Assembly: GCA_018267475.1 (NCBI GenBank) | Contig: JAFDYI010000006.1 | Coordinates: 62,001 to 126,000, forward strand | Reading direction: 5' to 3' | From: Bacteroidota bacterium | GTDB taxonomy: Bacteria; Bacteroidota; Bacteroidia; B-17B0; Aurantibacillaceae | DNA length: 64,000 nt | Part shown: in pieces, positions 10,116-59,620 of the stretch | Layout of the letters: every line of letters starts with the position of its first letter | How positions within the stretch are numbered: position 1 is the first letter of the stretch | Notes under the pieces: generated by a model | Seen by the model: the letters and a program-made list of their open reading frames with translations, nothing else | Told to the model about the DNA's origin: nothing | Databases searched by the model: none | Position numbers and translations under genes: made by a program

Positions 10116-10652
10116 ATGCGCAAGCTGGCTATATTGATATTTGTTTTTTTTACACTATCCGCAATGGATATAGTAGAGCGCCCTGTGCTACAACAAATGG
10201 AAGATACACAAGCCAAAATGAAAGCTACCTATATTTATAGCTTATCAAAAGGTTTTGAGTGGACGACCAACAAAGAAGGAAACTTCTCTATCACCGTGTT
10301 AGGAAAAGATGCCGGCTTAATGACACACCTCAACAACATTGCCAACGGACGTACTATAAACGGAAGAAAAATAGAAGTGCGAAGCAACGGAAGCGTACCC
10401 GATTTAGAAAAATGCAACGTTTTGTATATCACCTCCGAAAAATCCAACCTTTTAGCCGAAGTACTTAGTAAATTTAAAGGGAAAGGCGTACTGATTATTA
10501 CCGACAAACCTGGGTTGGCAAAAGTAGGCGCCGTGCTAAACTTTATTGTAAAAGATAATAAACTACAATACGAATTAAATAAAGTAGCCGCCAAACAAGA
10601 AGGCCTAAACGTAGGCTCTATGATTGAAAAACAAGCCAACAACATTTACTAA
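10116..10652 (+). CDS. YfiR-like (DUF4154) periplasmic protein
   Basis: 178 residues: signal peptide (LAILIFVFFTLSA), then one YfiR/DUF4154 domain. Family features are visible: the opening KATYIYSLSKGFEW, SITVLGKDAGLMTHLNN, the central NGRKIEVR, CNVLYITSEKSNLL, VLIITDKPG and the final LNVGSMIEKQANNI. In Pseudomonas, YfiR is a periplasmic repressor of the HAMP-containing diguanylate cyclase YfiN. Here the gene abuts the helical-repeat gene (stop TAA then ATG with no gap) and the HAMP-SpoIIE phosphatase follows. By analogy it may restrain that sensor; this is inference. Only one cysteine is present, so the disulfides of Pseudomonas YfiR are missing. Confidence 0.8.
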   Translation: MRKLAILIFVFFTLSAMDIVERPVLQQMEDTQAKMKATYIYSLSKGFEWTTNKEGNFSITVLGKDAGLMTHLNNIANGRTINGRKIEVRSNGSVPDLEKCNVLYITSEKSNLLAEVLSKFKGKGVLIITDKPGLAKVGAVLNFIVKDNKLQYELNKVAAKQEGLNVGSMIEKQANNIY

Positions 10653-11534
10653 ATGAAAAGGGCAAAACACATACTACTTAGCTGTCTCTTACTTATAGTA
10701 AGCGCTACCGGCTTTGCCCAGTTAGACTTGTTGAACAAAGCCCAAAACCTATACGTACAGAAAAAATTAGATTCAGCGCGCATCGTCATCAACCGAACTC
10801 TAAAAAACCCTGAAACAGCAAAAAACTACCAAACCTGGATGCTGCGCGGCGTTATTTACAAAGAACTATACAAGCTAAAAGAAACCGACAACGTTGCTTC
10901 ACCCAGCAGAGATAGCGCCGTAGTGTCTCTTATTCAATGCATAGAGATAGATGCTAAAAATGAAAACCCACAAAAACAAAACATTATAAAATCGCTGAGT
11001 TGGTTAGCCGCTCAATACCACAACGATATTTTAAAAATTACCGATACCCTACACTACGAACAAGCCCTTGTAAATGCAAAAAAATATAAAGCTATAAAAA
11101 AAGTAGTAGAGCCCACTTTTAATGAAAAAGAGTACGACTACAAAATATACTCCAGCATAGGTTCTATGTTTGAGGAGTGTTACAATAAAAATTCCAGCAA
11201 AAAACTATTGGATTTAGCTAAAGCCTATTTGCTAAAAGCGTATGATATTGATAACAACTCCGACTTAGTAAATAAAAATTTAGGAGTATTGTACTACAAC
11301 CAAGCTGTGGATATCATCAAAAAAATGGATTACGATATTCCGCTGGATCAATTGCCTATTTATCAAGATAACTCTATAAAATTGGGTAAGCAAGCACTGC
11401 CTTATTTGCTAAAAGCCATAAAAGCAAATACTTCGGATAAAGCGGTATTAGAAGGTTTGGCCGGCGTATATTATCTGCTTAACGAAACCGAAAAATACAA
11501 CGAATACAAACGAAAATCGGACGAGATAAAATAA
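10653..11534 (+). CDS. Secreted helical-repeat (TPR-like) protein
   Basis: 293 residues with a signal peptide (ILLSCLLLIVSATGFAQ). The mature part is helical with degenerate tetratricopeptide repeats, for example LNKAQNLYVQKKLDSARIVI near the N-terminus, KAYLLKAYDIDNNSDLVNKN in the middle and ALPYLLKAIKANTSDKAVLE near the end. The position between the YfiR-like gene (0-base gap) and the HAMP-SpoIIE gene (2-base gap) makes a single periplasmic sensing or scaffold module likely. No lipobox is present, so it should be a soluble periplasmic protein. Its ligand or partner is unknown. Confidence 0.75.
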   Translation: MKRAKHILLSCLLLIVSATGFAQLDLLNKAQNLYVQKKLDSARIVINRTLKNPETAKNYQTWMLRGVIYKELYKLKETDNVASPSRDSAVVSLIQCIEIDAKNENPQKQNIIKSLSWLAAQYHNDILKITDTLHYEQALVNAKKYKAIKKVVEPTFNEKEYDYKIYSSIGSMFEECYNKNSSKKLLDLAKAYLLKAYDIDNNSDLVNKNLGVLYYNQAVDIIKKMDYDIPLDQLPIYQDNSIKLGKQALPYLLKAIKANTSDKAVLEGLAGVYYLLNETEKYNEYKRKSDEIK

Positions 11535-11536
11535 CC

Positions 11537-13336
11537 ATGAGCCGTTTTAAATTTACTATAGGAAAAAAAATAGGTGCCGGCTTTGCTTTAGTTATTTTAC
11601 TTACCCTTATCGCTTTTATATTTACCAATACTGTAATTAATAACAGTAAAAGAGAAACGGAAGAAGTGGTACAGCACGTAACTCCCAGCGTGGCTACCTT
11701 AGAGTCGTTGCACCTGCTTATGCAGCGCTCGCAAATACTGATAACCCGATGGGTAAGCCAACAAAGCACAGACCAAGATCCTTCTAAAAAAGAATTACGC
11801 GACTTAATACGATACAAATATCCCAATGTAAAAAAAGCCTTGGACAGCCTTTCTACTCATTGGACCGATGACGAAAAAGATCAAATCAAAACCATTTTTT
11901 CATTAACCGATAAAATTTTTACACTTTATCAAAACGAAATTATGTCGCCGCTCAATTCATTTACCGCATACAACGATGCCTCTATAACACTGCCTATACA
12001 ACTAAGTATGGAATCGGTAGATGAAACCACCAAAATAATATACGAGCAACTAAACTCCCTCATAGATTCTCAAAAAAACAACGCCGAAACCGTTACCCAA
12101 AGAATGTTTTTATCGTTTAAGCACCTGCTAAACTTCGTTAAATACTTAGGTGTTTTTTTGGTGATAGGGGGTGTTTTAATTGCCTTTTTTACAGTAAGAA
12201 CCATTGTAAACCCCATTCAAAAATTAAAAAACATTATACAAGGCATGAGTTATGGCATGCTGCCTAACGACAGGCTGCCACCACGAAACGATGAAATAGG
12301 CGACATGAACGTAGCCTTAAACGACTTAGTATCATCAACCGAGCTTACTACCCATTTTGCCCGCGAAGTAGGGAACGGAAATTTCAACTCCTTTTACAAA
12401 CCCCTAAGCGAACACCATAAGCTGGGGCACGCTCTGCTAAAAATGCGTACCGACTTAGCCGAAAACGAGCGCGTACTCGAACAAAAAGTAATAGAGCGCA
12501 CCGAAGAGGTAGTAAAACAAAAAGAAGAAATACAACAAAAAAGCAACGAACTGGAAATTTTATACAAACAAGTAACCGATAGCATACGTTATGCCAAACG
12601 ATTACAAGATGCTATACTACCCTCCGATGCCGCTATAAAAGAAATACTGCCAAAATCTTTTGTGCTATTTAAACCCAAAGATATTGTAAGCGGCGATTTT
12701 TACTGGGCCAACCAGACAGGCGGCAAATCGTACATAGCCGCTATAGATTGCACCGGACACGGCGTACCGGGCGCTTTTATGAGTTTAGTGGGGCACAACA
12801 TTTTAAAAGAAATAGCTCTAAATAAAGAGGTGCTTCCTCCTGCTTCCATCATGGATAAAATGAGCAAAGAAGTAGTAAAAACACTAAACCCAAAATCAGG
12901 ATCTGCGGAAAATGCACATCAAACCAAAGATGGTATGGACATGAGTCTTTGTTGCGTAGATTATAACGCGATGGAGCTTCAATACTCGGGCGCTTTTAAC
13001 CCTTTATATTTAATCAGAAATGGAGAGCTTATTACCTACAAAGCCGATAAATTCCCTATTGGATTTAGATTTGATGAAACCATACAACATTTTACCAACA
13101 ACCTCATTAAGCTAGAAAAAGGCGATACTTTTTATATTTTTAGTGATGGATACGCCGACCAATTTGGCGGACCGAAAGGAAAAAAATTGATGACCGGCAA
13201 ATTTAAAGATGCGTTGTTACAAGCCAGTTCTTTACCGGTAGAAGAACAAAAGAAATTTTTAAACAACACCATTGAAAGCTGGCGCGGTACCTTAGAGCAG
13301 GTAGATGATATTCTAGTAATAGGAGTGCGCATTTAG
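11537..13336 (+). CDS. HAMP-domain SpoIIE/PP2C phosphatase sensor
   Basis: 599 residues. TM1 is at about 13-33, a periplasmic helical domain of about 160 residues resembles a four-helix-bundle MCP sensor, and TM2 is at about 198-220. A HAMP domain (NPIQKLKNIIQGM onward) follows, then a long coiled coil (about 305-350) and a SpoIIE phosphatase domain (about 365-599). Catalytic blocks are complete: VSGDFYW, DCTGHGVPGA, DGMDMSLC, SDGYADQFGGPKGKK and DDILVIG. It would dephosphorylate a Ser/Thr phosphoprotein in the cytoplasm in response to a periplasmic cue. It is the third gene of the YfiR-like operon. The HAMP/four-helix architecture is also that of YfiN, the known YfiR target, but the output here is a phosphatase rather than GGDEF. 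Confidence 0.92.
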   Translation: MSRFKFTIGKKIGAGFALVILLTLIAFIFTNTVINNSKRETEEVVQHVTPSVATLESLHLLMQRSQILITRWVSQQSTDQDPSKKELRDLIRYKYPNVKKALDSLSTHWTDDEKDQIKTIFSLTDKIFTLYQNEIMSPLNSFTAYNDASITLPIQLSMESVDETTKIIYEQLNSLIDSQKNNAETVTQRMFLSFKHLLNFVKYLGVFLVIGGVLIAFFTVRTIVNPIQKLKNIIQGMSYGMLPNDRLPPRNDEIGDMNVALNDLVSSTELTTHFAREVGNGNFNSFYKPLSEHHKLGHALLKMRTDLAENERVLEQKVIERTEEVVKQKEEIQQKSNELEILYKQVTDSIRYAKRLQDAILPSDAAIKEILPKSFVLFKPKDIVSGDFYWANQTGGKSYIAAIDCTGHGVPGAFMSLVGHNILKEIALNKEVLPPASIMDKMSKEVVKTLNPKSGSAENAHQTKDGMDMSLCCVDYNAMELQYSGAFNPLYLIRNGELITYKADKFPIGFRFDETIQHFTNNLIKLEKGDTFYIFSDGYADQFGGPKGKKLMTGKFKDALLQASSLPVEEQKKFLNNTIESWRGTLEQVDDILVIGVRI

Positions 13337-13386: not shown

Positions 13387-13419
13387 TTTGCAGCCCACGG
13401 CTTGAATGTTGTAGTATTG
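13387..13419 (+). promoter_or_regulatory. Probable promoter of C10 peptidase gene
   Basis: TTTG (13387-13390), 21 bases, TAGTATTG (13412-13419), which matches TAnnTTTG at five of its six fixed positions. Expected transcription start is near 13424, leaving a leader of about 26 bases before ATG 13450. Confidence 0.5.
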
Positions 13420-13449
13420 CGAAATACAAACCCCTTAAAACAAAAAAGC

Positions 13450-15780
13450 ATGAAAAAAATAGCGTACTCCTCTTTAGCCTTTGCCCTGTTTGTAGGTACT
13501 GCTACAGCCAGGCCTATAGCACCGCTGGCAGCCAAAACTATAGCCGAAAACTTTTACAAGAAAAACGCGGTTGTACCTATAATTTCAAGCAGTTTGGCTT
13601 ACACCTATACAGATGCTACCGGACAGCCTGTGTATTACGCCTACAACATAAACAATCATGATGGCTTCGTTATTATTTCGGCCGAAGATGCCGGTAAACC
13701 TATTATAGGGTATTCTACCAAAAATAGTTTTGTAACCCCTAAACCGCACTCGCAAATAGAATATTGGATGGGCTTACGGGTAAAAGAGATACAATCTATT
13801 CGTGAACATAACCTGGTAGCCACCCCTGAAGTAACCGCAGAGTGGAATAAATATACAAGCAATAATAACCAACGTATGACAGGCGGCGCAGGTACGGTTA
13901 TGAGCGGAACGGTAGCCCCTTTAGTACAAACCCAGTGGAATCAATCGCCCTACTATAATGATTCGTGCCCCGGAGGCTCGGTAACGGGCTGCGTAGCAAC
14001 TACTATGTCGCAAATTATGCGTTATTGGCAATGGCCGGTAAAAGGTACCGGTTCTAGCTCTTATTGCGATTGTACCTCTAGCGGATACTCTCAAAATTAC
14101 GGAACCCTTTCGGCTAATTACGGCGCTACTACCTACAACTGGGGCAACATGCCCTTGGTAGTTAATGCCCCCAACAGCGATGTAGCTCAACTATGTTATC
14201 AAGCAGGCGTAAGTGTGGACATGGATTACTCCCCAAGCGGAAGCGGTGCTTTGGTATTGCAAGTAGATGCCGGACCCGGAGGGCCTTGCGCTCAATATTC
14301 ATATATCAATTATTTTGGATACGATCCCAGCATCATAGCAGGTTATGTAAGAACCACTGTAAGCAATGACTCTCTTTGGATGCAATACATAAAAACAGAT
14401 TTAAACCTTGGTCGCCCGGTGCAATATGCCGGTGCCGATCCCAGCGAGGGCGGGCACACTTGGGTTTGCGATGGATATGATGCCAACAACTACGTACACA
14501 TGAACTGGGGTTGGGGCGGCTACGACGATGGCTTTTTTAGCATCAACAACCTGCAAACTACCAATGGCACTTTTAACCCCTCTACCCAACATGAAATACT
14601 AACCGGTATTGTGCCGATGCACACCTACTCATTAGATGCCAGCATTGCGGCTATTACCAGCCCTTCCGGTGCCTATTGCCCCGGCAGCAGCAACATCACT
14701 CCTTCGGTAGTTTTGTTAAACGCAGGTACTACCGCTATGACCTCGTGCAACATCAATTATCAAGTAGATGCAGGTACTTTGCAAACGATGAATTGGACAG
14801 GTAACTTAGCGGGCTCGCAAAGCGTTACCGTATCTTTGCCCTCTTATGCATCTGCTGCAGGCTCGCACACCTTGGTTTGCTACTCAAGCAACCCTAATGG
14901 AGGAACCGACCAAAACCCATCTAACGATACCTCAAAAACCATGTACAGCGCAAGTGTTGCAGGCAGTTTACCCGTTTCGGAAGGTTTTGAAAACCCAAGC
15001 ACTTATACCAATTGGGACGTTTACAATACCGGAGGCACCTCAGGGCAAAACTGGGGCGTAACTACTGCCGCAGCGGCCGATGGTTCTCATTCTATCTTAC
15101 TAAACAATTTAGGCAACACATCGGGGGTAGCAAGCACAATTCAGTCTATTTCAGTATATAATTTAACTACTTTGTCCTCACCCGAATTAACCTACAAAGC
15201 AGCTTATCAGCAAACAAACACAAGCAACAACGATGGCTTGCAAGTATTTGCCTCTACCGATTGTGGAGCTACGTGGAGCGCTAAGCAATATCTCTCAAGT
15301 ACTACCTTAGCTTCCCTATCGGGTTCGCCCAGCTCTTCTGCTTACGTGCCTAGCCCCTCTCAATTTACCACTTACACCGTACCCATTGCTTCGGTTGCAA
15401 GCAGCACTCAAGTAATGTTTAAATGGGTATTTACGGCTGGTTCTTCTGTTGGAAACAATATATACATTGATGATATCAATCTTTTTGATGCAGCGGCTAC
15501 TACCGGGCTTTCTAAAATAGAAAACGAGATGAATCTAAATGTATATCCCAACCCTTCATCAGGTGTTGTGAATATTGCCTTTAATCTAAGCGATAAGCAA
15601 AATATATCAGTAAACGTTATGGATGTGCTGGGGCGCGTGGTAGAAACAATACCTGCACAACAATACGCTGCCGGCAATAATACCCTTACTATTGGGCAAC
15701 AAACCTATCAAGCCGGCGTTTATTTTGTAAACATTAGTGTGAATGGTCAGCTCATCTCTAAAAAAATAGTGATGCAATAA
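13450..15780 (+). CDS. C10-family cysteine peptidase with T9SS type A sorting domain
   Basis: A 776-residue secreted protease of the streptopain family. A signal peptide (IAYSSLAFALFVGTATA) is followed by a pro-domain (about 20-120, with a YTDATGQPVYYAYNINNHDG block), then the catalytic domain. Catalytic Cys is C181 in VTGCVATTMSQIM, His is H336 in GGHTWVCDGYD, and HMNWGWGGYDDGFF carries the conserved Trp region. A CARDB-like domain follows (about 400-500), then a jelly-roll-like domain, and finally a type IX sorting domain from about 695 (LNVYPNPSSGVVNI, ending GVYFVNISV then KKIVMQ). It should cross the outer membrane through the type IX system. ATG 13450 is chosen because the signal peptide starts there; the TTG upstream overlaps the promoter. 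Confidence 0.95.
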   Translation: MKKIAYSSLAFALFVGTATARPIAPLAAKTIAENFYKKNAVVPIISSSLAYTYTDATGQPVYYAYNINNHDGFVIISAEDAGKPIIGYSTKNSFVTPKPHSQIEYWMGLRVKEIQSIREHNLVATPEVTAEWNKYTSNNNQRMTGGAGTVMSGTVAPLVQTQWNQSPYYNDSCPGGSVTGCVATTMSQIMRYWQWPVKGTGSSSYCDCTSSGYSQNYGTLSANYGATTYNWGNMPLVVNAPNSDVAQLCYQAGVSVDMDYSPSGSGALVLQVDAGPGGPCAQYSYINYFGYDPSIIAGYVRTTVSNDSLWMQYIKTDLNLGRPVQYAGADPSEGGHTWVCDGYDANNYVHMNWGWGGYDDGFFSINNLQTTNGTFNPSTQHEILTGIVPMHTYSLDASIAAITSPSGAYCPGSSNITPSVVLLNAGTTAMTSCNINYQVDAGTLQTMNWTGNLAGSQSVTVSLPSYASAAGSHTLVCYSSNPNGGTDQNPSNDTSKTMYSASVAGSLPVSEGFENPSTYTNWDVYNTGGTSGQNWGVTTAAAADGSHSILLNNLGNTSGVASTIQSISVYNLTTLSSPELTYKAAYQQTNTSNNDGLQVFASTDCGATWSAKQYLSSTTLASLSGSPSSSAYVPSPSQFTTYTVPIASVASSTQVMFKWVFTAGSSVGNNIYIDDINLFDAAATTGLSKIENEMNLNVYPNPSSGVVNIAFNLSDKQNISVNVMDVLGRVVETIPAQQYAAGNNTLTIGQQTYQAGVYFVNISVNGQLISKKIVMQ

Positions 15781-27816: not shown

Positions 27817-28191
27817 TTAGCTAAAAGGAATCATTTCAAAAGGTTCGTTTAAAATGAACGAGTAGCTGCGCCCTGCCTCTTCAATGTCTTCATCATCTTC
27901 ACTGTAATGCCACTTGTATTTTATCGCAACGCCTTTTTCTTTTAGCTGTTGTACGGTTTTCATCAACTCTAAAATGTAACGCGCACTTCCTGTATTAAAA
28001 AAGTGCAAGTTTACCGATAGGGTAAATGTTTTTACCTCACTCGCTTCTACTTTTTGTACAAAGTGAATGATGGGTTTAAAAAAATCGTGTGTAAGTTCCG
28101 GAATGCAAATGCCTTCCATGGATAGTTCTCCGCTTTTTTTATTAAACAACACCTTAGGTGTTTTTTCTGTTGCTTCTAATTGCAATTCCAT
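27817..28191 (-). CDS. SiaC-like regulatory phosphoprotein (DUF1987)
   Basis: 124 residues, single DUF1987 domain. In Pseudomonas aeruginosa, SiaC is phosphorylated on Thr68 by the SiaB kinase and dephosphorylated by SiaA, a SpoIIE-type phosphatase, and its unphosphorylated form activates the diguanylate cyclase SiaD. Here the corresponding motif is LHFFNTGSARYILELMK with T67 as the likely phosphosite. The start (MELQLEATEKTPKVLFNKKSG) and the SMEGICIPE block match the family. The gene is 19 bases downstream of a giant SpoIIE sensor on the same strand, exactly the partner expected. No SiaB kinase or GGDEF gene is nearby. Confidence 0.88.
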   Translation of the reverse strand: MELQLEATEKTPKVLFNKKSGELSMEGICIPELTHDFFKPIIHFVQKVEASEVKTFTLSVNLHFFNTGSARYILELMKTVQQLKEKGVAIKYKWHYSEDDEDIEEAGRSYSFILNEPFEMIPFS

Positions 28192-28210: not shown

Positions 28211-31200
28211 TTATTTTTTTATTTCTAATTCTTCTTTTTTCTCTAAAACTGATTTTATGCAAAACCCTATTACGCATATATCATCTGTTTGGTTGCCTTT
28301 TTTCTTCCACTCTATATGACGTTTCCATAAAAAGTTTTTGCGCTTATCCATAGGTACAGACTGCATTTCGATAAGAGTTTGCTTAAATTGTGCTTTGCTG
28401 TATTTTTTAATACTGGTACCATTAAACTGGTCAAAATAACCATCGCTGCTCATATATATTTTCATGTCGGGCGACAAAATGCGTATTTCGGTAGTAAAAT
28501 GCGCTTTTAGCTCGGAGGCTATGCCTCCAATAGGTATTCTATTTCCCTTTATTTCAGTTAGTTCATGGCCTTGCACTACATAAAGGCTGTGCATAGCGCC
28601 GCCAAACATCAGCACTTTTCGCTTCAAATCCATTACGCAAAGCGATACATCTAAACCATCTAAAATATCGTCGTTGCGTTTGTATTGATTCAGTGATTCT
28701 TTTATTCGTTTATTTAAAAAATCAAGAATAACACCGGGGTCTGAAAAGTTACGTTCTATTACGGCTTGCGAAATAATGTTGCCACACAAAATACTAAGCA
28801 AGGCGCCCGAAACCCCATGTCCGGTACAATCGCCCAAAGCCATAAAAATTTTATCGTCTTTTTTATGGCACCAGTAAAAATCGCCTCCAATTACATCGCG
28901 CTGTTTTAAAATCACAAAAGAAGCAGGAATAATAGCTTGCATAAACGATTCGGGGGGCATGATAGATTGTTGTATGCGAAGCGAGTATTCTATATTATCC
29001 GATATGTCTTTGTTTTTTTCAGATAATTCTTTTCTATACGTAATTTGCTCTATACCTAATTGGATAGACTCCGCCAAATCGGTTAATAGCTGAATATCTT
29101 GGTCGGAAAACGTATCGGGTTTAGACGAAATAACGGATATAGTTCCGGTAATTCGTTGCTCACGACGAATGGCTACGCTTAAAAAAGAGCGGGTGTTTGC
29201 TTTTATCACCTCGTCCGGAAAACTATTTACCGAAGCAATTTTTGCAGGGGTAGCGCTGCTGTATAATAAGTAGTCTTTTTTGTTGTAAGCGGCAAAATTA
29301 AAATGCGCTACTTCGGTTTGTAGGTTGCGTTTTACGCTATGCGAGCTCATTTCGTAATGAAATGTTTCTAATTGCTTGCGTTGTTCGTTATGAAAAGTAA
29401 CAAAAGTGCTTTTGTATTGAGCAATGTTGGTGCACAGGCGGCGCAATACGGAATCCATCAGTTCGCTCACCGTTTTTGCATTTATAAATTCTTTTTTGAT
29501 GGAATTGATAACCTCTAAGCGTTCGGAATAGCTTTGAATGCGTGTGTTTTGCAGTTCAATCGTTTCTTTTTTATCAATTTTATCAAGAGTAACGGCAATG
29601 GCATCGGCTACTTGGCGAGCAAAATTTACGTAATCATGATCAAAAATATATGACTGAGTAGAAGCTAAATTTAAAGCACCTACTAGTTTCTTTTCAAAAA
29701 ATATAGGCGTGATGACGTACGAGTTGATGCCCAGTGGCTTTAATAATTGTATATCACTATTTGAAAGAGATCCTGAATCAAGTAAATCATTTATTTGGTA
29801 GTGTTTGTTTTGCAACAAAGTAGGCAGGCTTCTATAATCAACGGCCGGTATAATGGTAGCTTCTATTTTTTTAGTTTGAGTGTTAAACTCATGAAGGTGG
29901 GCGGTTTTAATATCTTCATCAAAAAGAGTAAGAGTAATGCGCTCGGCATCGGCTACTTTTGTTTTTAGTTGATTCAATACTTTTTCTACTAAAACGGTTC
30001 GGGTGGAGGCTTCTAATACTACTTGTTTTATTTCATTTAGTATCTCTAGTCGTTCGGAGTGTTTGCGTATGTGTTCGTTTTTTTCAGCAATAATGCGCTG
30101 CGCTTCTATGCGGTCGGTAATATCGCGGCCTATCACCTGAAAGCCTATTACCTTTTCGGTATTTTCATCGTCTTTGTATAATTTTACAGATAAGCCCAAC
30201 CAGCGTTCGGCCCCTCCTTTTACTAAAGTAGGTATTTCTATATAATCTTCTTGTATGTTGTTTTTTAGTAAGTTCACATTAAAGTCATATACTTTTTGCT
30301 GGTGCGAAGGGCTTAGCAACTGCTTCATGTTCATGGCCAGCAACTCGTCGTGTGTGTACCCGGTAAAGCGTGTGCCTACGTCGTTTACGTATGTAAATAC
30401 TCCGTTTATATCGGTTATATAAATTACATCGCTGGCCGACTCTACTATGTGTTTGTATTTTTCTTCCAAACGTTTTTGTTCGGTAACATCAATACCCATG
30501 CCCACTACTATGTTCTCGTTTATCACGCTGTTTTCCCACTGTATGTAGTGTACTACGCCTCTTTTGTCGGTAATGCGTTCTAACTGATTCCGCTCTATAG
30601 TATGTGCTACAATAGTGTCTTTTACTTCTTGGTTGTGCCCGGTATCACCCGATCGTATTTGCCACCAACCGTTGCCAAGCAATTCTTTTTCAGTATAGCC
30701 CAATAAGGGTTCAAAGTTTTTTGAAGCAAAAATAATTTCACCTTCTTTATTAGCAGCCAATACCAAGGCATTCCCGTTGTTTATAGTGGAGTTGGCAAAA
30801 AGCAATTTGTCCGATAAGTTAAGGTGTACCTGTATGCTTATAAGCGTTAAAACCACGGCTGAAATAAGCGTTACGATATACATAAGAGGGCTGTACCCTG
30901 GGCTGCTGGTAGCCAGCAAAACCCATAAGCCCATAGCTAATACAAAAAAGCCATATATTAAAAAAGGTTTTACTTTATTTAAAATTAAATGGGCTATATT
31001 AATTACTAATATTATGGATATTAGGAAGTAAGGCGCTAAACTTGTTTCATATATCAAATACAAATACATAGTAGATATGCCATAAAGCATAATAGTAAGC
31101 ACCCCTTTTGCATGATTTTTTACATAGGTAGAAGTAAATGAAAAAAGCATGGTAGTAAACAATAGAACGCCCGCTCCTATATGGAAATATAAAATACTGT

Positions 31201-33628
31201 CGTAAATACCGGTAGCAATAGCATATACAATACCGCTTATTATAATAAGAACAGAGCCTCCGGCTAAAATAATGCGGGCGTTGGCCAAGTTAAACACGGT
31301 ATCGGTTGATCGAATTAATTCTTCTTTATAGCTTTTAAATACTCTGATAAAGAGCACCATAACAGAGAACAACAGGGTAAGTGCAATGATAAAAAAACTG
31401 TTGGTTTTCCAAAACGGAGGGCTTATTTCAAAAGCAAATTCAGAAGGGGCACTCCAGTTAATGCCGTCGTAGGAAACGGCTACATAAAAAATATACTTAC
31501 CGTTATCTAAATTGGAATAAATAGCCTTGTTGGTTTTTTCGGCGTACATCCATTTTTTATCAAAGCCTTCTAGCTTGTATTTAAGCATGTATTTATTGTT
31601 GCCTAAAGCGTTAAACACTTCAAACCCGAAGGTAAGGTTGTTTTGGTCGTAAGCTAAAGTTAAGTTTTCAGGTAAGTTGGCTTTAGCATTAAAAGCATAA
31701 CCCAAACGCACCCAGTTGGTAGTATCATTAAACAATTGTATAGAAGTAAGCTTTACTATTAAGCCGCGCAGAATGTCTTGATCGCGATTAGGGGCGTAGC
31801 TTACCAAGCCCTGACTGGTACCTATATAAAAAGTGCCGGATAAGCCACGCACTAAAGAGTTGGGTAAAAATTCCGCGTTATTTCTACTAAAATTATCAAT
31901 TAGTTCATCTATTTTAGTTTGATTGGGAGCAAAACTTATTTTGTACAAACTGTTAGAAGAGGTTACAAATAATTCATCGTCGGTTGTGGCATAAACCGAT
32001 TTTATAAACACGCTTTTTAAGCCCTGCCGGCGTTCTATTTGCGTAAACATCTTGTTGTTTTTGTTGTACCTAAAAACACCAAAACCATCGGTAGAGGCAT
32101 TGATATAGCTGGGCGTACAGGCAATAGAATGTATGGCTGATTCGGAAAGCTGGTTGTCTTTATCAATAAGCTTGGATATTTGTTTATCTTTTATGTAATA
32201 CAGACCTCTATCGGTTCCCACCCAAATCAAATCGCCATCGGTAGCTATGCAGTAAATAGAAAGCCCGTGAAAGCGAGCCGAAAAATTGCTCAGTTCTTTT
32301 GTTTTAAGCGAGTACAAGAGTAAGCCTTGCTTATCGGTACCTACCAGCAGTGCGGTATCGCTTAAAAATTTGACCGACAAGATATTGGCATTGGTGCTTA
32401 TGGTTTGCGTACTTTTTCCGGTGGCTCCATCGTATATATCTATATTAGAAAAAAGTTTTCCTATAGCTACCTGCCTGTTTTTACTGTTGTAATCGGCACA
32501 AGTAACGTTTTCTGTTTTGATGTCAAAGAAAGGGGAGATGTTTTTTTCATCAAAAAAGCAAGCGCCCGCCGAAGTGCAAAGAATAAACAGATTATCTTCA
32601 TAAGGAAGAATTTGCCTGCAATTATTAGCCGGCAAATTTTGCTTCATATTATATATTAAAAAATTTTGATTGAGCAGCACCGATACCCCTTGCGAAGCCG
32701 TACCGCACCAAGCGTTTCCATAGCTATCTGTTATTACGCTTAGTAATTTGTTATCGGCCAAACCATTTTCTTCTGTAATACATTGGTACTCTTTCTCGTT
32801 GTATTTTACCAATCCGTTACCAAAAGTAGCAAACCAAATACCTCCTTTTTTGTCCACATAAATATCGGAGGTAGAGGCCAGCCACATAGGCTTAGGCCCG
32901 TCAAGCCAGGTGGTGCTATGAAAATTGTATTGCATCACTCCCTTGTCGGCTACGCTAATAAATAATTTAGCATCAAAATATGTTTCTATATCTTGTATTT
33001 TTTCGTTTTGTAAGGTATCGTACAAGGATTGATACTTCTCTATAAGTGTTTTATCTAAGGTATTAAAAGCGTATATGCCGCTGCTTGCCGTACCCAACCA
33101 CAACTCGTTTTCTGCTTGATGCAAATACCCGCAGGTAACGTTTTCTACATCTACTTTTAAGTTCGTGTAAAACTGCGAAAACTTTCTATCTTTTAACTCC
33201 CATACACCCAAAGAGGTAAGCACATATAAATCCGAATCGTTTACCGGAATAATTTTGTTGATGCTGATGGGGTTGTTTCGCGAATAAAGAGGATACTCTT
33301 CGGTATAATTGCCTATACATTTAAACACCGACCTGTCTGTAGCGAACCAAGTATAATCGTCGCTTTCTGCAATTGATTTTATGGGGCGCGTAAGCGAAAC
33401 CGGGTTGCGGGCATATACATCAATAAAACTTTTTCCGGCATATTTTTTTATGCCCTCGTTTGTGCCAATCCAAATATAACCTTCTTCTCCTTGATACAAA
33501 CAGTTTACCTGCGAATTAGGCAAACCATCGTGCAAGGTAAGTTGCGAAAAATTAAACTCTTGCGCAAAAGAAACGGCAGACAAAAAAAATCCGATAAGAA
33601 AAAAAACAGTACTTATTTTTTGTTTCAT
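28211..33628 (-). CDS. Giant propeller-7TM-PAS-GAF-SpoIIE sensor phosphatase
   Basis: 1805 residues. In order: signal peptide; Reg_prop beta-propeller repeats (about 25-635, units like GYIWIGTNEGIKKY, LIWVGTDRGLYYI); Y_Y_Y domain (about 665-740); a membrane region with one span near 745-765 and about seven more to 945; two PAS domains (about 955-1060 and 1055-1175, with YTEKELLGNGWW, DVIYITDINGVFTYVND); two GAF domains (about 1205-1345, 1378-1528); linker helix NIEYSLRIQQSIMP; SpoIIE phosphatase (about 1550-1790: IGGDFYW, DCTGHGVSGA, DGLDVSLC, SSDGYFDQFNG, DDICVIG). It combines periplasmic and cytosolic inputs to control dephosphorylation of a partner, most likely the adjacent SiaC-like protein. 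ATG 33628 is preferred over TTG 33634. The propeller repeats are diverged, unlike those at 52 kb. Confidence 0.92.
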   Translation of the reverse strand: MKQKISTVFFLIGFFLSAVSFAQEFNFSQLTLHDGLPNSQVNCLYQGEEGYIWIGTNEGIKKYAGKSFIDVYARNPVSLTRPIKSIAESDDYTWFATDRSVFKCIGNYTEEYPLYSRNNPISINKIIPVNDSDLYVLTSLGVWELKDRKFSQFYTNLKVDVENVTCGYLHQAENELWLGTASSGIYAFNTLDKTLIEKYQSLYDTLQNEKIQDIETYFDAKLFISVADKGVMQYNFHSTTWLDGPKPMWLASTSDIYVDKKGGIWFATFGNGLVKYNEKEYQCITEENGLADNKLLSVITDSYGNAWCGTASQGVSVLLNQNFLIYNMKQNLPANNCRQILPYEDNLFILCTSAGACFFDEKNISPFFDIKTENVTCADYNSKNRQVAIGKLFSNIDIYDGATGKSTQTISTNANILSVKFLSDTALLVGTDKQGLLLYSLKTKELSNFSARFHGLSIYCIATDGDLIWVGTDRGLYYIKDKQISKLIDKDNQLSESAIHSIACTPSYINASTDGFGVFRYNKNNKMFTQIERRQGLKSVFIKSVYATTDDELFVTSSNSLYKISFAPNQTKIDELIDNFSRNNAEFLPNSLVRGLSGTFYIGTSQGLVSYAPNRDQDILRGLIVKLTSIQLFNDTTNWVRLGYAFNAKANLPENLTLAYDQNNLTFGFEVFNALGNNKYMLKYKLEGFDKKWMYAEKTNKAIYSNLDNGKYIFYVAVSYDGINWSAPSEFAFEISPPFWKTNSFFIIALTLLFSVMVLFIRVFKSYKEELIRSTDTVFNLANARIILAGGSVLIIISGIVYAIATGIYDSILYFHIGAGVLLFTTMLFSFTSTYVKNHAKGVLTIMLYGISTMYLYLIYETSLAPYFLISIILVINIAHLILNKVKPFLIYGFFVLAMGLWVLLATSSPGYSPLMYIVTLISAVVLTLISIQVHLNLSDKLLFANSTINNGNALVLAANKEGEIIFASKNFEPLLGYTEKELLGNGWWQIRSGDTGHNQEVKDTIVAHTIERNQLERITDKRGVVHYIQWENSVINENIVVGMGIDVTEQKRLEEKYKHIVESASDVIYITDINGVFTYVNDVGTRFTGYTHDELLAMNMKQLLSPSHQQKVYDFNVNLLKNNIQEDYIEIPTLVKGGAERWLGLSVKLYKDDENTEKVIGFQVIGRDITDRIEAQRIIAEKNEHIRKHSERLEILNEIKQVVLEASTRTVLVEKVLNQLKTKVADAERITLTLFDEDIKTAHLHEFNTQTKKIEATIIPAVDYRSLPTLLQNKHYQINDLLDSGSLSNSDIQLLKPLGINSYVITPIFFEKKLVGALNLASTQSYIFDHDYVNFARQVADAIAVTLDKIDKKETIELQNTRIQSYSERLEVINSIKKEFINAKTVSELMDSVLRRLCTNIAQYKSTFVTFHNEQRKQLETFHYEMSSHSVKRNLQTEVAHFNFAAYNKKDYLLYSSATPAKIASVNSFPDEVIKANTRSFLSVAIRREQRITGTISVISSKPDTFSDQDIQLLTDLAESIQLGIEQITYRKELSEKNKDISDNIEYSLRIQQSIMPPESFMQAIIPASFVILKQRDVIGGDFYWCHKKDDKIFMALGDCTGHGVSGALLSILCGNIISQAVIERNFSDPGVILDFLNKRIKESLNQYKRNDDILDGLDVSLCVMDLKRKVLMFGGAMHSLYVVQGHELTEIKGNRIPIGGIASELKAHFTTEIRILSPDMKIYMSSDGYFDQFNGTSIKKYSKAQFKQTLIEMQSVPMDKRKNFLWKRHIEWKKKGNQTDDICVIGFCIKSVLEKKEELEIKK

Positions 33629-33723
33629 ATACAACTAATGTTTAGGCTTAGCTCTGTTATGTAACCGACGAAAGTAAGGAAAAAAAAACACAATTAAAAC
33701 AAAACAATATATTCTTTTAAAAA

Positions 33724-52036: not shown

Positions 52037-55000
52037 ATGAAACAACGTTCACTGCTTTGCATATTATTGGTTTTCACATATTCCTGCACCCAAAACAGTT
52101 TACACGAAAAAGGAAAAGCCCGCGGCAGCGATACCGTATTAGAGGCCGTTGGTATTGTGATGAATGCCGATACTATAAAACCCGCAAAAGTACTTGCTGC
52201 CGGCACGCCAAAAACAATTAAAGCCGGAGCGCCCATTGTAAAAGAAATAGAACCAAACTTTGGGGAAGCCGGGGGCCTTAGCATGATGCAAAATTATACG
52301 ACCGATAACGGCTTGGCCTTAGACGCCATTTCTTTAGGGCACAAAAGCGCTTTGTGCGATAGAAACGGAAATATCTGGTTTGGTACCAATGGCGGAGGCG
52401 CGTCGCGCTACGATGGCAAATCCTTTACTCATTTTAGCACCGCGCAGGGGTTGCCCCATAATGTTGTTTTAAGCATTACCGAAGATAAAAGCGGAAATAT
52501 CTGGTTCGGAACCGATGGCGGAGGAGCGAGCCGCTACGACGGCAAATCCTTTACTCATTTTAGCACCGCACAAGGGCTGGCCCATAATGTTATTCATAGC
52601 ATCACCGAAGATAAAAACGGAAATATCTGGTTCGGAACCGAGGGCGGAGGCGTGAGCCGTTATGATGGGAAATCCTTTACTAATTTTAGCACCGCTCAGG
52701 GGCTAACTGATAATTTTGTTTACAGCATCACCGAAAATAAAAACGGAAATATCTGGTTCGGAACCGATGGCGGCGTGAGCCGTTATGATGGTAAATCCTT
52801 TACTCATTTTAGCACCGCAGAAGGACTGGCCCATAATGTTGTTTTGAGCATCACCGAAGATAAAAGCGGGAACCCCTGGTTCGGTACTTATGGCGGAGGG
52901 GTGAGCCGTTATGATGGGAAATCCTTTACTAATTTTACCAGCGCGCAGGGGCTGGCATCAAACGATGTTAGAAGCATCGCCGAAGATAAAAGCGGAAACC
53001 TCTGGTTCGGTACTTATGGCGGAGGAGTGAGCCGTTACGATGGGAAGTCCTTTACCAATTTCACTACCGCACAGGGGCTGGCCCATAATGTTGTTTGCAG
53101 CATTACCGAAGATAAAAGCGGAAATATCTGGTTCGGTACACAAGGCGGAGGAGTAAGCCGTTACGACGGCAAATCCTTTACTAATTTTAGCACCGCACAA
53201 GGGCTGGCCCATAATGTTGTTTATAGCATCACCGAAGATAAAACCGGAAACCTCTGGTTCGGTACATCAGGCGGAGGAGTGTCGCGTTACGATGGGAATG
53301 GTGTAGATGACATCGTAAACGGAACAAACTTGTATCAACACACTCAACAAGACCTAAAAAAAAACAAAAAAAATCTTATTAAATCCTTTACTAATTTTAG
53401 CACCGCACAAGGGCTGCCCAATAATATTGTTTATAGCATCACCGAAGATAAAAGTGGAAACCTCTGGTTCGGTACATCAGGCGGAGGCGCGTCGCGCTAC
53501 GATGGTAAATCCTTTACCAATTTTACCACCGCACAAGGGCTGGCTCATAATATTGTTTATAGCATCACCGAAGATAAAAGCGGAAACCTCTGGTTCGGTA
53601 CATTAGGCGGAGGCGCGTCGCGCTACGATGGTAAATCCTTTACCCATTTCACCACCGCACAAGGGCTGGCCCATAATTTTGTTTTCAGCATCACCGAAGA
53701 TAAAAATGGAAATATCTGGTTCGGCACCGATGGCGGAGGAGTAAGCCGTTATGACGGCAAATTCTTTACCAATTTTACCACTGAGCAAGGACTGGCTTAT
53801 AATTTTGTTTATAACATCACTGAAGATAAAAGCGGAAACCTCTGGTTCGGTACAGCAGGCGGAGGAGTAAGCCGCTACGATGGGAAATCCTTTATCAATT
53901 TCACCACTGCGCAGGGACTTCCGGATAATACGGTAACACAAGTTGTACTATCTAAAGAGCAGAACATCGTTATGGGAACAAACTTCGGGGTGGCGGTAGT
54001 GGATTCTTTCATCTCAAAGTTAGAGATAAACAACAAAAAAAACAAGATTCCCGCAGCAAATAGTTTAAGCAATCAGGAGTTGAAAAACTATGAACCGGTA
54101 ATAGAAATTTATAATACCGCAACCGGTTACCCGATAAAGGATGTCAATTCAGGGCAGGGAGCCATGTATTGTGACAGCAAGGGGATTATATGGGTAGCCA
54201 CCGGCTCGGATAAAACCGGGCTTGTGCGTTTCGATTACAAGGCCTTGAATAAAAACCCGAATCCGCCAAAAGTGATCATTCAAAGCATTAAAATAAACGA
54301 AGAAAACGTGTGCTGGTATAATTTAGATGGGGTAAAAAATGATAGCGCAACAAAAGCGCAGCAGGAAGTGCAGACGTTTGGCAAACCGTTATCTACACAA
54401 GAACGCGATAGTTTAAGGGCTCGATTCGGAGAAATAAAATTTGATGGAATCAGCAAATTTTACCCTTTACCGGAAAACCTGGTGTTGCCCTACAAGAATA
54501 ATCATATCCGTTTTGAGTTTGCTGCAATAGAGCCGGCGAGGCCTTACCTTGTAAAATACCAATATCTATTAGAGGGCTATGATGAGGAATGGAGCCCGCT
54601 AACCAACAAAACCGATGTGAGCTTCGGTAATATCTACGAAGGCACTTACACATTCAAATTAAAAGCAAGAAGTCCGTTTGGAATTTGGAGCGAGCCCATA
54701 ACATATACTTTTAAAGTTTTACCGCCCTGGTGGCGCACCTGGTGGATGTATGCGGTATATGGAATCATTGCGGTTGGACTTATTTCAGCTATAGTTTGGT
54801 ACAATGGCAAAAAATTAAGGGCAAGGGCTAAAGAGTTGAAAACAAAGGTGGACGAAGCTACCATAGAAATAAAGGAGCAAAAACGCCTTATTGAAGAAAG
54901 ACACAAAGAAATAACCGACAGCATCAATTACGCAGAAAGAATACAGCGTTCGTTATTAGCAAGTAAAAAAACGCTGGATGAAAGCCTAAAAGACTACTTT

Positions 55001-55672
55001 GTTTTGTTTAAGCCAAAAGATGTGGTAAGCGGCGATTTTTACTGGGCAGCAAACCTTGTCGGTTCAAGTGGAGTTGAAAACTTTTTACTCTGCGTTGCCG
55101 ACAGCACAGGCCACGGTGTACCCGGAGCTATTATGAGTATATTGAATATTGCCTGTCTGAAAGAAGCATCGCTTCAGGGAATAACCAGTCCTGATTTATT
55201 CTTGAATAAAACAAGGAGTTTAATTATTGAAAATTTAAAAAACGATGGCAGTGCTGAAGGCGGAAAAGACGGAATGGATGGAAGCTTATTGAGCTTTGAT
55301 TTTAAAAACAACATCTTGTATTGTGCTTGCGCCAATAATCCCGTTTGGATAATAAGAGAAGGAATTTTAATAGAAATAAAAGCCGACCGTTTCCCTATAG
55401 GTAAATACGATAGAGATAAGGAGCCTTTTACGTTGCATACGATAAAGTTACAAAAAGGCGATGTTGTTTACACTTTAACCGATGGTTTTCCCGATCAGTT
55501 TGGCGGCCCTTCCGGTAAAAAATTTAAATACAAAAAACTTCAGGAATTATTGTTGTCCATTGCAGGCGATCCGATGCCCATTCAAAAACAAAAGCTACAT
55601 GAGGCTTTTGAAAGCTGGAAAGGCAATTTAGAGCAGGTAGATGACGTTACGATTGTCGGAGCCCGCATTTAA
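52037..55672 (+). CDS. Reg_prop-Y_Y_Y-TM-SpoIIE sensor phosphatase
   Basis: 1211 residues. The N-terminus (LLCILLVFTYSCTQNS) resembles a lipoprotein signal. Twelve near-identical 42-residue Reg_prop repeats (111-641), such as GNIWFGTDGGGASRYDG, form a beta-propeller. A Y_Y_Y domain follows (about 823-901), one span (about 903-922), a coiled coil and the linker helix DSINYAERIQRSLLA. The SpoIIE phosphatase (about 960-1211) has VSGDFYW, DSTGHGVPGA, DGMDGSLL, TDGFPDQFGGPSGKK and DDVTIVG. The classic DCTGHG reads DSTGHG here, with Ser replacing Cys. It links an extracytoplasmic ligand to phosphatase activity. Repeat 8 carries a 28-residue insertion. It has its own promoter and no operon partner. 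Confidence 0.92.
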   Translation: MKQRSLLCILLVFTYSCTQNSLHEKGKARGSDTVLEAVGIVMNADTIKPAKVLAAGTPKTIKAGAPIVKEIEPNFGEAGGLSMMQNYTTDNGLALDAISLGHKSALCDRNGNIWFGTNGGGASRYDGKSFTHFSTAQGLPHNVVLSITEDKSGNIWFGTDGGGASRYDGKSFTHFSTAQGLAHNVIHSITEDKNGNIWFGTEGGGVSRYDGKSFTNFSTAQGLTDNFVYSITENKNGNIWFGTDGGVSRYDGKSFTHFSTAEGLAHNVVLSITEDKSGNPWFGTYGGGVSRYDGKSFTNFTSAQGLASNDVRSIAEDKSGNLWFGTYGGGVSRYDGKSFTNFTTAQGLAHNVVCSITEDKSGNIWFGTQGGGVSRYDGKSFTNFSTAQGLAHNVVYSITEDKTGNLWFGTSGGGVSRYDGNGVDDIVNGTNLYQHTQQDLKKNKKNLIKSFTNFSTAQGLPNNIVYSITEDKSGNLWFGTSGGGASRYDGKSFTNFTTAQGLAHNIVYSITEDKSGNLWFGTLGGGASRYDGKSFTHFTTAQGLAHNFVFSITEDKNGNIWFGTDGGGVSRYDGKFFTNFTTEQGLAYNFVYNITEDKSGNLWFGTAGGGVSRYDGKSFINFTTAQGLPDNTVTQVVLSKEQNIVMGTNFGVAVVDSFISKLEINNKKNKIPAANSLSNQELKNYEPVIEIYNTATGYPIKDVNSGQGAMYCDSKGIIWVATGSDKTGLVRFDYKALNKNPNPPKVIIQSIKINEENVCWYNLDGVKNDSATKAQQEVQTFGKPLSTQERDSLRARFGEIKFDGISKFYPLPENLVLPYKNNHIRFEFAAIEPARPYLVKYQYLLEGYDEEWSPLTNKTDVSFGNIYEGTYTFKLKARSPFGIWSEPITYTFKVLPPWWRTWWMYAVYGIIAVGLISAIVWYNGKKLRARAKELKTKVDEATIEIKEQKRLIEERHKEITDSINYAERIQRSLLASKKTLDESLKDYFVLFKPKDVVSGDFYWAANLVGSSGVENFLLCVADSTGHGVPGAIMSILNIACLKEASLQGITSPDLFLNKTRSLIIENLKNDGSAEGGKDGMDGSLLSFDFKNNILYCACANNPVWIIREGILIEIKADRFPIGKYDRDKEPFTLHTIKLQKGDVVYTLTDGFPDQFGGPSGKKFKYKKLQELLLSIAGDPMPIQKQKLHEAFESWKGNLEQVDDVTIVGARI
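52367..53959 (+). repeat. Array of twelve 126-bp Reg_prop repeats
   Basis: Twelve in-frame copies of a 42-codon unit; copy 4 is one codon shorter and copy 8 is expanded by 28 codons. Copies are far more alike than usual Reg_prop blades, so the array was probably expanded or homogenised recently. Confidence 0.92.
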
Positions 55673-59533: not shown

Positions 59534-59607
59534 AGATTAAATTTTTCTAAAAAAAGGGTATTCGCAACATTTTATGTGACCGTACTGCTTAACCTCAAAA
59601 ATACGTG

Positions 59608-59615
59608 TATATTTG
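59608..59615 (+). promoter_or_regulatory. -7 promoter element TATATTTG next to an ATG start
   Basis: A perfect TAnnTTTG element ends 5 bases before ATG 59621, predicting a leaderless or nearly leaderless mRNA. It also rules out the upstream alternative start at 59576. Confidence 0.5.
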
Positions 59616-59620
59616 GGCAA

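Follow-up and report, generated by a model that had tools for sequence, protein, structure and literature searches.

In Pseudomonas aeruginosa, the three-component YfiBNR system (AwsXRO/TpbB) places a secreted DUF4154 protein, YfiR, beside a sensor with two transmembrane (TM) segments and a HAMP domain, the diguanylate cyclase YfiN, on which YfiR acts and which it represses (PMC2837407, PMC3375315); the remaining component, YfiB, is an OmpA/Pal-like lipoprotein. The YfiR-YfiN core was described as modular in 2012, with histidine kinases, Hpt, GGDEF-EAL and MCP among the swapped outputs and with the YfiN PAS domain and YfiR-binding residues kept (PMC3375315); the main text of that paper, in the part available, names no phosphatase output, DUF4154 fusion, four-helix partner or TPR partner. 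Two other systems are close to the locus considered here: SiaABCD of P. aeruginosa, in which SiaA is a two-TM HAMP protein with a PP2C domain, and the Bacteroidota operons of a TonB receptor, a DUF4154-family periplasmic protein and a CHASE8 histidine kinase. We analyzed a 64,000-nucleotide stretch (the window) of a Bacteroidota bacterium of the order B-17B0 (assembly GCA_018267475.1, contig JAFDYI010000006.1, positions 62,001 to 126,000), in which three genes encode a YfiR-like protein (Y), a TPR-like protein (T) and a membrane sensor phosphatase (S). Together, Y, T and S are likely to work as a single unit that signals from the envelope to the cytoplasm, in which Y acts on S and so switches a SpoIIE/PP2C domain. 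The evidence consists of the domains of the proteins, the active site of S, the conserved gene order, the occurrence of relatives that encode DUF4154 and SpoIIE in one reading frame, and the near absence of diguanylate cyclases from the order.

The three proteins and the closest described systems

The three open reading frames (ORFs) follow each other with gaps of 0 bases (Y-T) and 2 bases (T-S; Table 1). Y matched Pfam PF13689 (DUF4154, 'YfiR/HmsC-like') well above the cut-off (94.4 vs 24.9 bits), its N-terminus is signal-peptide-like by eye, and its fold is that of YfiR crystal structures, including 4zhu and 4yn7 (target TM-scores of 0.67-0.80 among the matches listed). It scored below the NCBIfam equivalog for YfiR proper (NF053586: 23.4 bits, cut-off 85) and below the closest NCBIfam subfamily (NF053591: 87.3 bits, cut-off 125). 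Phe162 and Glu163 of YfiR belong to its YfiN-binding surface, Phe162 being the centre of the patch (PMC3375315), and our own residue mapping, made from a weak alignment (E = 0.12), puts Tyr152-Glu153 of Y at these positions. By the same mapping, the Phe162 column holds an aromatic residue in 40 of the 41 Y proteins from trios (39 Phe, one Tyr) and the Glu163 column holds Glu in 40/41.

T has a signal-peptide-like start and a predicted structure that is entirely helical. Its TPR match in Pfam is sub-threshold (19.7 bits, cut-off 25.7), and its top Foldseek matches are TPR superhelices, with E-values down to 1.2e-6 but low TM-scores and a large root-mean-square deviation, so that T can be called TPR-like at most. 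No OmpA match was found in T by Pfam, and no named family exceeded the cut-off in Pfam or NCBIfam.

S carries a SpoIIE domain (Pfam, E = 5.8e-16), and its orthologues have two hydrophobic segments. In the AlphaFold model (23 sequences; mean predicted local distance difference test score (pLDDT) 83.3, predicted template modelling score (pTM) 0.45), a four-helix bundle lies between the membrane helices and is followed by a helical linker and then by the PP2C domain. The HAMP match is under the cut-off (17.7 bits vs 25); the homologue in locus L240 scored 25.3. The closest solved relative of the PP2C domain is SiaA-PP2C (6k4e: Z = 30.7, 244 residues, 2.2 A), and D387, D404, G407, D537, G538 and D590 of S align to D457, D474, G477, D600, G601 and D653 of SiaA (numbering of the active site taken from PMC7647112), with D387 just before the Pfam SpoIIE match. 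As all six conserved active-site residues were matched exactly, we rejected the idea that S is an inactive phosphatase; by its sequence, S is a two-TM, four-helix, HAMP, SpoIIE/PP2C phosphatase with an intact active site. The bundle resembles the ligand-binding domain of MCP2201 (Z = 15.4, 129 residues, 2.1 A), and residues 3-273 resemble McpB (Z = 16.7, 259 residues, 5.9 A). Because unrelated helical bundles reach Z = 13, only slightly below these values, we read the likeness to chemoreceptors as a common shape, with kinship unproven; the structure matches listed for S (VIA-align) are mostly to PP2C, and the comparison of the periplasmic fold rests on few others.

An earlier note, made from the letters of the window, had described three closely packed genes (gaps of 0 and 2 bases) for a YfiR-like periplasmic protein, a secreted TPR-like protein and a four-helix/HAMP membrane sensor with a SpoIIE catalytic domain. 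The ORF coordinates, the DUF4154 score, signal-peptide-like start and fold of Y, the model and two hydrophobic segments of S and its Pfam SpoIIE match all agree with this description, with the HAMP segment sub-threshold and with T reaching 'TPR-like' and no further on its signal-peptide-like start, helical model and weak TPR matches.

Table 1 Features of the Y-T-S locus and a SiaC gene in the window
Feature	Position	Strand	Basis or remark
Y, secreted YfiR-like protein, 178 aa	10116..10652	+	ORF; DUF4154 E 8.7e-27; YfiR fold matches
DUF4154 domain of Y, residues 34-168	10215..10619	+	Pfam
T, secreted TPR-like protein, 293 aa	10653..11534	+	in phase with Y, behind the TAA stop of Y
S, membrane sensor phosphatase, 599 aa	11537..13336	+	ORF, Pfam, AlphaFold model
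Periplasmic four-helix bundle of S, residues 45-184	11669..12088	+	model; match to MCP2201 ligand-binding domain
HAMP-like segment of S, residues 218-266, after TM2	12188..12334	+	Pfam, sub-threshold
Helical linker of S, residues 295-360	12419..12616	+	model; confidence <50 at residues 320-331
SpoIIE/PP2C domain of S, residues 396-598	12722..13330	+	Pfam; 6k4e alignment
SiaC-family phosphoprotein, candidate substrate type	27817..28191	-	PF09345 E 1.5e-29; outside the trio operon

Like YfiBNR, the trio has three components, with a secreted DUF4154 protein beside a two-TM HAMP sensor and with the aromatic-Glu pair of the YfiN-binding surface retained in Y. It differs in output (SpoIIE/PP2C vs GGDEF), in the third protein (TPR-like vs OmpA/Pal-like lipoprotein), in the sensor domain, which is a periplasmic four-helix bundle instead of the PAS/CHASE8 domain of YfiN, and in Y, which lacks the Cys145-Cys152 pair of YfiR. 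CHASE8 gave no match in S, and a hidden CHASE8 domain was rejected on the basis of hhalign (probability 0.14% against 14 DUF4154-linked kinase N-termini, 13 of them with a CHASE8 match). The AAVVF motif, by which YfiN binds YfiR, has no counterpart in residues 1-220 of S; one loose match in 45 aligned rows was judged to lie inside TM1, and three of eight TonB-DUF4154-linked kinases scanned have an AAVVF-like motif. Because S has neither a CHASE8 match nor AAVVF, the YfiR-YfiN interface is not transferable unchanged to Y and S. The Cys145-Cys152 disulfide is required for folding of YfiR (PMC4655355); in our weak-alignment mapping the aligned positions of Y are non-Cys, and no more than one Cys occurs in 38 of the 41 trio Y domains.

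The trio resembles SiaABCD in that SiaA and S share the two-TM HAMP PP2C architecture and the active site, and SiaC proteins occur in the order. It differs in that siaB and siaC are not beside the trio, both SiaC genes of the source genome lying elsewhere, in that this genome has no GGDEF protein for the role of SiaD, and in that S falls below the SiaA equivalog (NF038263: 209.9 bits, cut-off 700; best stretch from residue 275). The TonB-DUF4154-CHASE8 operons likewise have a DUF4154-family protein beside a membrane sensor, and they are unlike the trio in their histidine kinase output, CHASE8 sensor and outer-membrane receptor instead of T. Since defining features of YfiBNR and of SiaABCD were looked for and are missing, the trio is, on sequence grounds, a member of neither system.

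Conservation of the trio and other DUF4154-SpoIIE arrangements

We surveyed 87 genomes of the order, 83 of which have DUF4154. Among the matches listed, S orthologues (at least 46% identity over more than 1000 bp) occupy 77 places in 76 genomes; weaker S relatives may be absent from this listing, as from the phylum sample below. At 70 of the 77 places a DUF4154 match precedes S on the same strand, separated from the S match by 910-1491 bp, which leaves space for T. No DUF4154 was listed on the contig for the remaining seven; in five of these S starts <540 bp from the contig start, and in 5/7 of the genomes without a listed DUF4154 by S, a Y-T pair is found near the end of another contig (nine Y-T pairs in the order are cut off by a contig end ahead of SpoIIE). 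Y, T and S were all present in the 40 loci examined among the 70, and the ORF maps outside the trio differ among these loci while the trio is constant, so that a conserved fourth operon gene was rejected. Chance adjacency was also rejected: the source genome has a single DUF4154 match against 19 SpoIIE matches, and the same order and spacing recur at 70/77 places. In one genome, the S of a second trio copy (L058:1876-3658) is split into a sensor ORF and a phosphatase ORF.

A collection of named genomes gave at least 583 matching stretches; 575 of those listed were relatives, and the best 80 were analyzed. Among these, 23 loci have a full-length S, with T present in 21 and Y in 18; of the five without both partners, four run into a contig end upstream and the fifth is L118, considered below. 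At the 57 loci where only the catalytic part matched, neither Y nor a T-like protein was found (0/57 each, E < 1e-10; some flanks short), and a TPR match at one of them, L141, is weak and partial (E = 1e-5). In a sample of 395 genomes from the phylum, DUF4154 was present in 39, vs 83/87 in the order, and full-length S (E < 1e-60, up to three candidates scored per genome) in two, the source genome and G131, a genome from another family of the same class; both carry the trio (locus L240 in G131). Conservation across Bacteroidota, raised by the earlier note, therefore stands within the order (70/77; 40/40) and falls for the phylum (S in 2/395), and the trio, judged by sequence searches, is a mark of this order and scattered relatives and not of Bacteroidota at large.

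The order has 138 DUF4154 places in 135 ORFs (three with two domains), which we classed by their neighbours. Besides the 70 trio ORFs and the nine in Y-T pairs cut by a contig end, 17 form a single frame with SpoIIE, 11 follow a TonB receptor and face a divergent SpoIIE gene, and two face such a gene without a receptor beside them. Kinase arrangements comprise eight ORFs with a TonB receptor and a CHASE8 and/or histidine kinase gene (one receptor fragmentary) and two with a TonB receptor and a divergent HisKA_2 kinase. Ten encode coiled-coil proteins with a lipoprotein-like start and a C-terminal DUF4154 (Pfam-checked in two), and six are unclassed, five lying after a TonB receptor where the sequence ends before any output domain and one having no partner that was recognised. 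The coiled-coil proteins (L050:7812-8522, L052-L054, L056, L196 and L210-L213) possibly hold their DUF4154 domain at the outer membrane.

Every long-frame DUF4154 ORF of the order (17/17) has SpoIIE in the same frame. Each fusion combines a single or double DUF4154 with a hydrophobic stretch and has SpoIIE at the C-terminus; both models matched in 16/17, the 17th being cut by the contig end within DUF4154, a domain that was picked up there only by the order-wide DUF4154 survey, and Pfam confirmed all six submitted, with no additional sensor domain above the cut-off in these six. Outside the order, the phylum sample has five DUF4154 frames >600 aa, all of them DUF4154-histidine kinase fusions. 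The sensor half of the TonB-DUF4154 type carries HisKA_2 in L222:4924-6945 and L223:3-1718 and SpoIIE in L189-L193; in their best pairings, the kinase-type N-termini (n = 4, two of them truncated so that the output domain is missing) share 41-51% identity with the SpoIIE type, and hhalign (probabilities of 99.4% and 98.8%) shows homology of each type with the sensor half of S. Since one sensor half carries either SpoIIE or HisKA_2 behind homologous N-termini, the comparison of sequences indicates that the output behind the DUF4154 input is exchanged, and that in this order it is mostly SpoIIE.

Proposed signal transfer from Y to S and competing explanations

We propose that periplasmic T probably informs Y, that Y, by analogy with YfiR and YfiN, would dock on the periplasmic four-helix bundle of S and bias its state, and that the signal would travel by way of TM2, HAMP and the helical linker to switch the SpoIIE/PP2C domain. 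PP2C domains are reportedly switched through the helices linking them to their sensors in RsbU and SpoIIE. The same analogy suggests that Y contacts S directly and represses it as YfiR represses YfiN, and that T may take the upstream role of YfiB or of a TonB receptor; S may work as a dimer. Because the Phe162 and Glu163 columns are conserved in Y while S has neither CHASE8 nor AAVVF, the YfiN-binding surface of Y seems, from these sequences, to have been kept and its partner replaced. The mirror of YfiR-YfiN drawn by the earlier note thus holds for a YfiR-like protein beside a HAMP sensor and breaks down at the sensor domain of S, which is chemoreceptor-like and has no CHASE8 or AAVVF. Its suggestion that YfiR-like proteins control Ser/Thr phosphatases gains good comparative support from the sequences of the trio, the 17 fusions, the TonB pairs with a divergent SpoIIE gene and the scarcity of GGDEF.

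Several observations weigh against the proposed unit. In addition to the missing CHASE8 match, AAVVF motif and cysteine pair, L118 is a full-length S relative (37% identity) with Y and T absent from the available flanks, and two proteins of the phylum sample, L255:3889-5820 and L256:4159-6090, join the sensor half of S to GAF/PAS, not SpoIIE, and lack Y and T in their neighbourhood. Within the same order, 10/135 DUF4154 ORFs are paired with CHASE8 and/or histidine kinase genes, and 10/135 are the coiled-coil proteins, for which no SpoIIE gene was detected in the stretches examined. A model of Y and T read through as one chain has well-formed domains and a pTM of 0.60, which we judged to equal that of T alone; as T alone explains this value, a Y-T interface is not indicated. 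Finally, no SiaC gene lies within the trio operon.

A different arrangement would have Y and T capture a ligand and pass the small molecule to the bundle of S, so that the ligand, and not a repressor protein, controls the phosphatase. The resemblance of the bundle to a chemoreceptor ligand-binding domain and the lack of the YfiR-binding motif of YfiN in S fit such a hand-over, as does a Dali search that placed YfiR near an ABC domain (reported in the part of PMC4655355 available). We nevertheless consider it unlikely, as relatives have DUF4154 and SpoIIE in one chain, the six scanned being without an extra sensor domain, and the aromatic residue that contacts YfiN is retained in 40/41 Y proteins. 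The trio might also have been kept by co-inheritance or for an envelope function, with Y and T acting in the envelope (e.g., as assembly factors) and S an independent sensor, given that co-directional genes may persist without physical interaction and that T has no named family above cut-off. This appears improbable when the trio stays constant at 40 loci with varying surroundings, when shared frames and divergent pairs re-create the link between DUF4154 and SpoIIE, and when neither Y nor a clear T accompanies the other SpoIIE genes at 57 loci.

That Y regulates a diguanylate cyclase encoded elsewhere and merely shares an operon with an unrelated phosphatase has in its favour that DUF4154 is the YfiR family and that the studied YfiR acts on such an enzyme, but we rejected it as having next to no likelihood, because the order is nearly without GGDEF (not found in the source genome or in 86/87 order genomes by a search positive in 8/14 control genomes) and because SpoIIE is encoded in one frame with DUF4154 in 17 ORFs and next to it in other layouts. 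The one GGDEF match among the 87 genomes is a 118-aa frame with an internal stop, and from these searches the order appears unable to make cyclic di-GMP (c-di-GMP).

Candidate targets and implications

S may dephosphorylate a SiaC-type protein phosphorylated by a SiaB-type kinase, and by analogy with SiaA we suspect a SiaC-type protein to be its substrate. The SiaC family, to which the substrate of SiaA belongs, is present in 85/87 order genomes, and the source genome has two SiaC genes. The one in the window carries HFFNTGS, similar to the NTSS in which Thr68 of Pseudomonas SiaC is phosphorylated; the second carries LEYFNTSSSK and adjoins a DUF6272 gene, which we take to be of the SiaB family. 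A STAS search of the source genome found none, although a divergent STAS could escape it, and HATPase_c_2 gave three matches, one over the cut-off, so that a classical RsbV/RsbW target is not obvious.

The SiaC gene of the window lies 19 bp behind a gene for a 1807-aa propeller/PAS/GAF/SpoIIE sensor (28211-33634, minus strand), and the two are a candidate phosphatase-substrate pair. The window holds five SpoIIE genes (11537-13336, 28211-33634, 52037-55672, 59576-61546 and 61609-63789), and the 2.76-Mb source genome 19 SpoIIE matches vs two SiaC genes. Downstream of the trio, 13402-15780 (plus strand) encodes a peptidase C10 with a Spi inhibitor domain and a Por secretion tail. Scans for promoters and terminators yielded no excess of matches over shuffles.

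No link between YfiR and SpoIIE, or between YfiR and a Bacteroidetes phosphatase, was found in the literature, a weak negative since the search covered open-licence papers only. Relative to the literature examined, part of it seen as partial text, the phosphatase output, the single-chain fusions, the four-helix sensor without the YfiN motif and the TPR-like partner would be new, as would the spread of DUF4154-SpoIIE wiring, deduced from sequence comparison, through an order almost without GGDEF. A wider reading, which we find quite possible without favouring it, is that the YfiR module has largely been rewired from c-di-GMP to protein dephosphorylation, with the envelope state (sensed by a TPR protein, a TonB receptor or a built-in DUF4154) gating SpoIIE phosphatases that feed a SiaB/SiaC switch with an effector other than SiaD. 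The proposed control of S also raises the question of what role SiaC has where a GGDEF protein was not found.

If Y acts on S as proposed, a periplasmic control module associated with c-di-GMP would extend to protein phosphatases, and one of the 19 SpoIIE matches of this genome would gain an upstream input, none being described in the literature searched. The single-chain DUF4154-SpoIIE proteins are natural systems for the direct study of coupling across the membrane. On the wider reading, a phosphatase pathway controlled from the periplasm would exist in parallel to YfiBNR, and its four-helix bundle would offer a new kind of YfiR-sensor interface.

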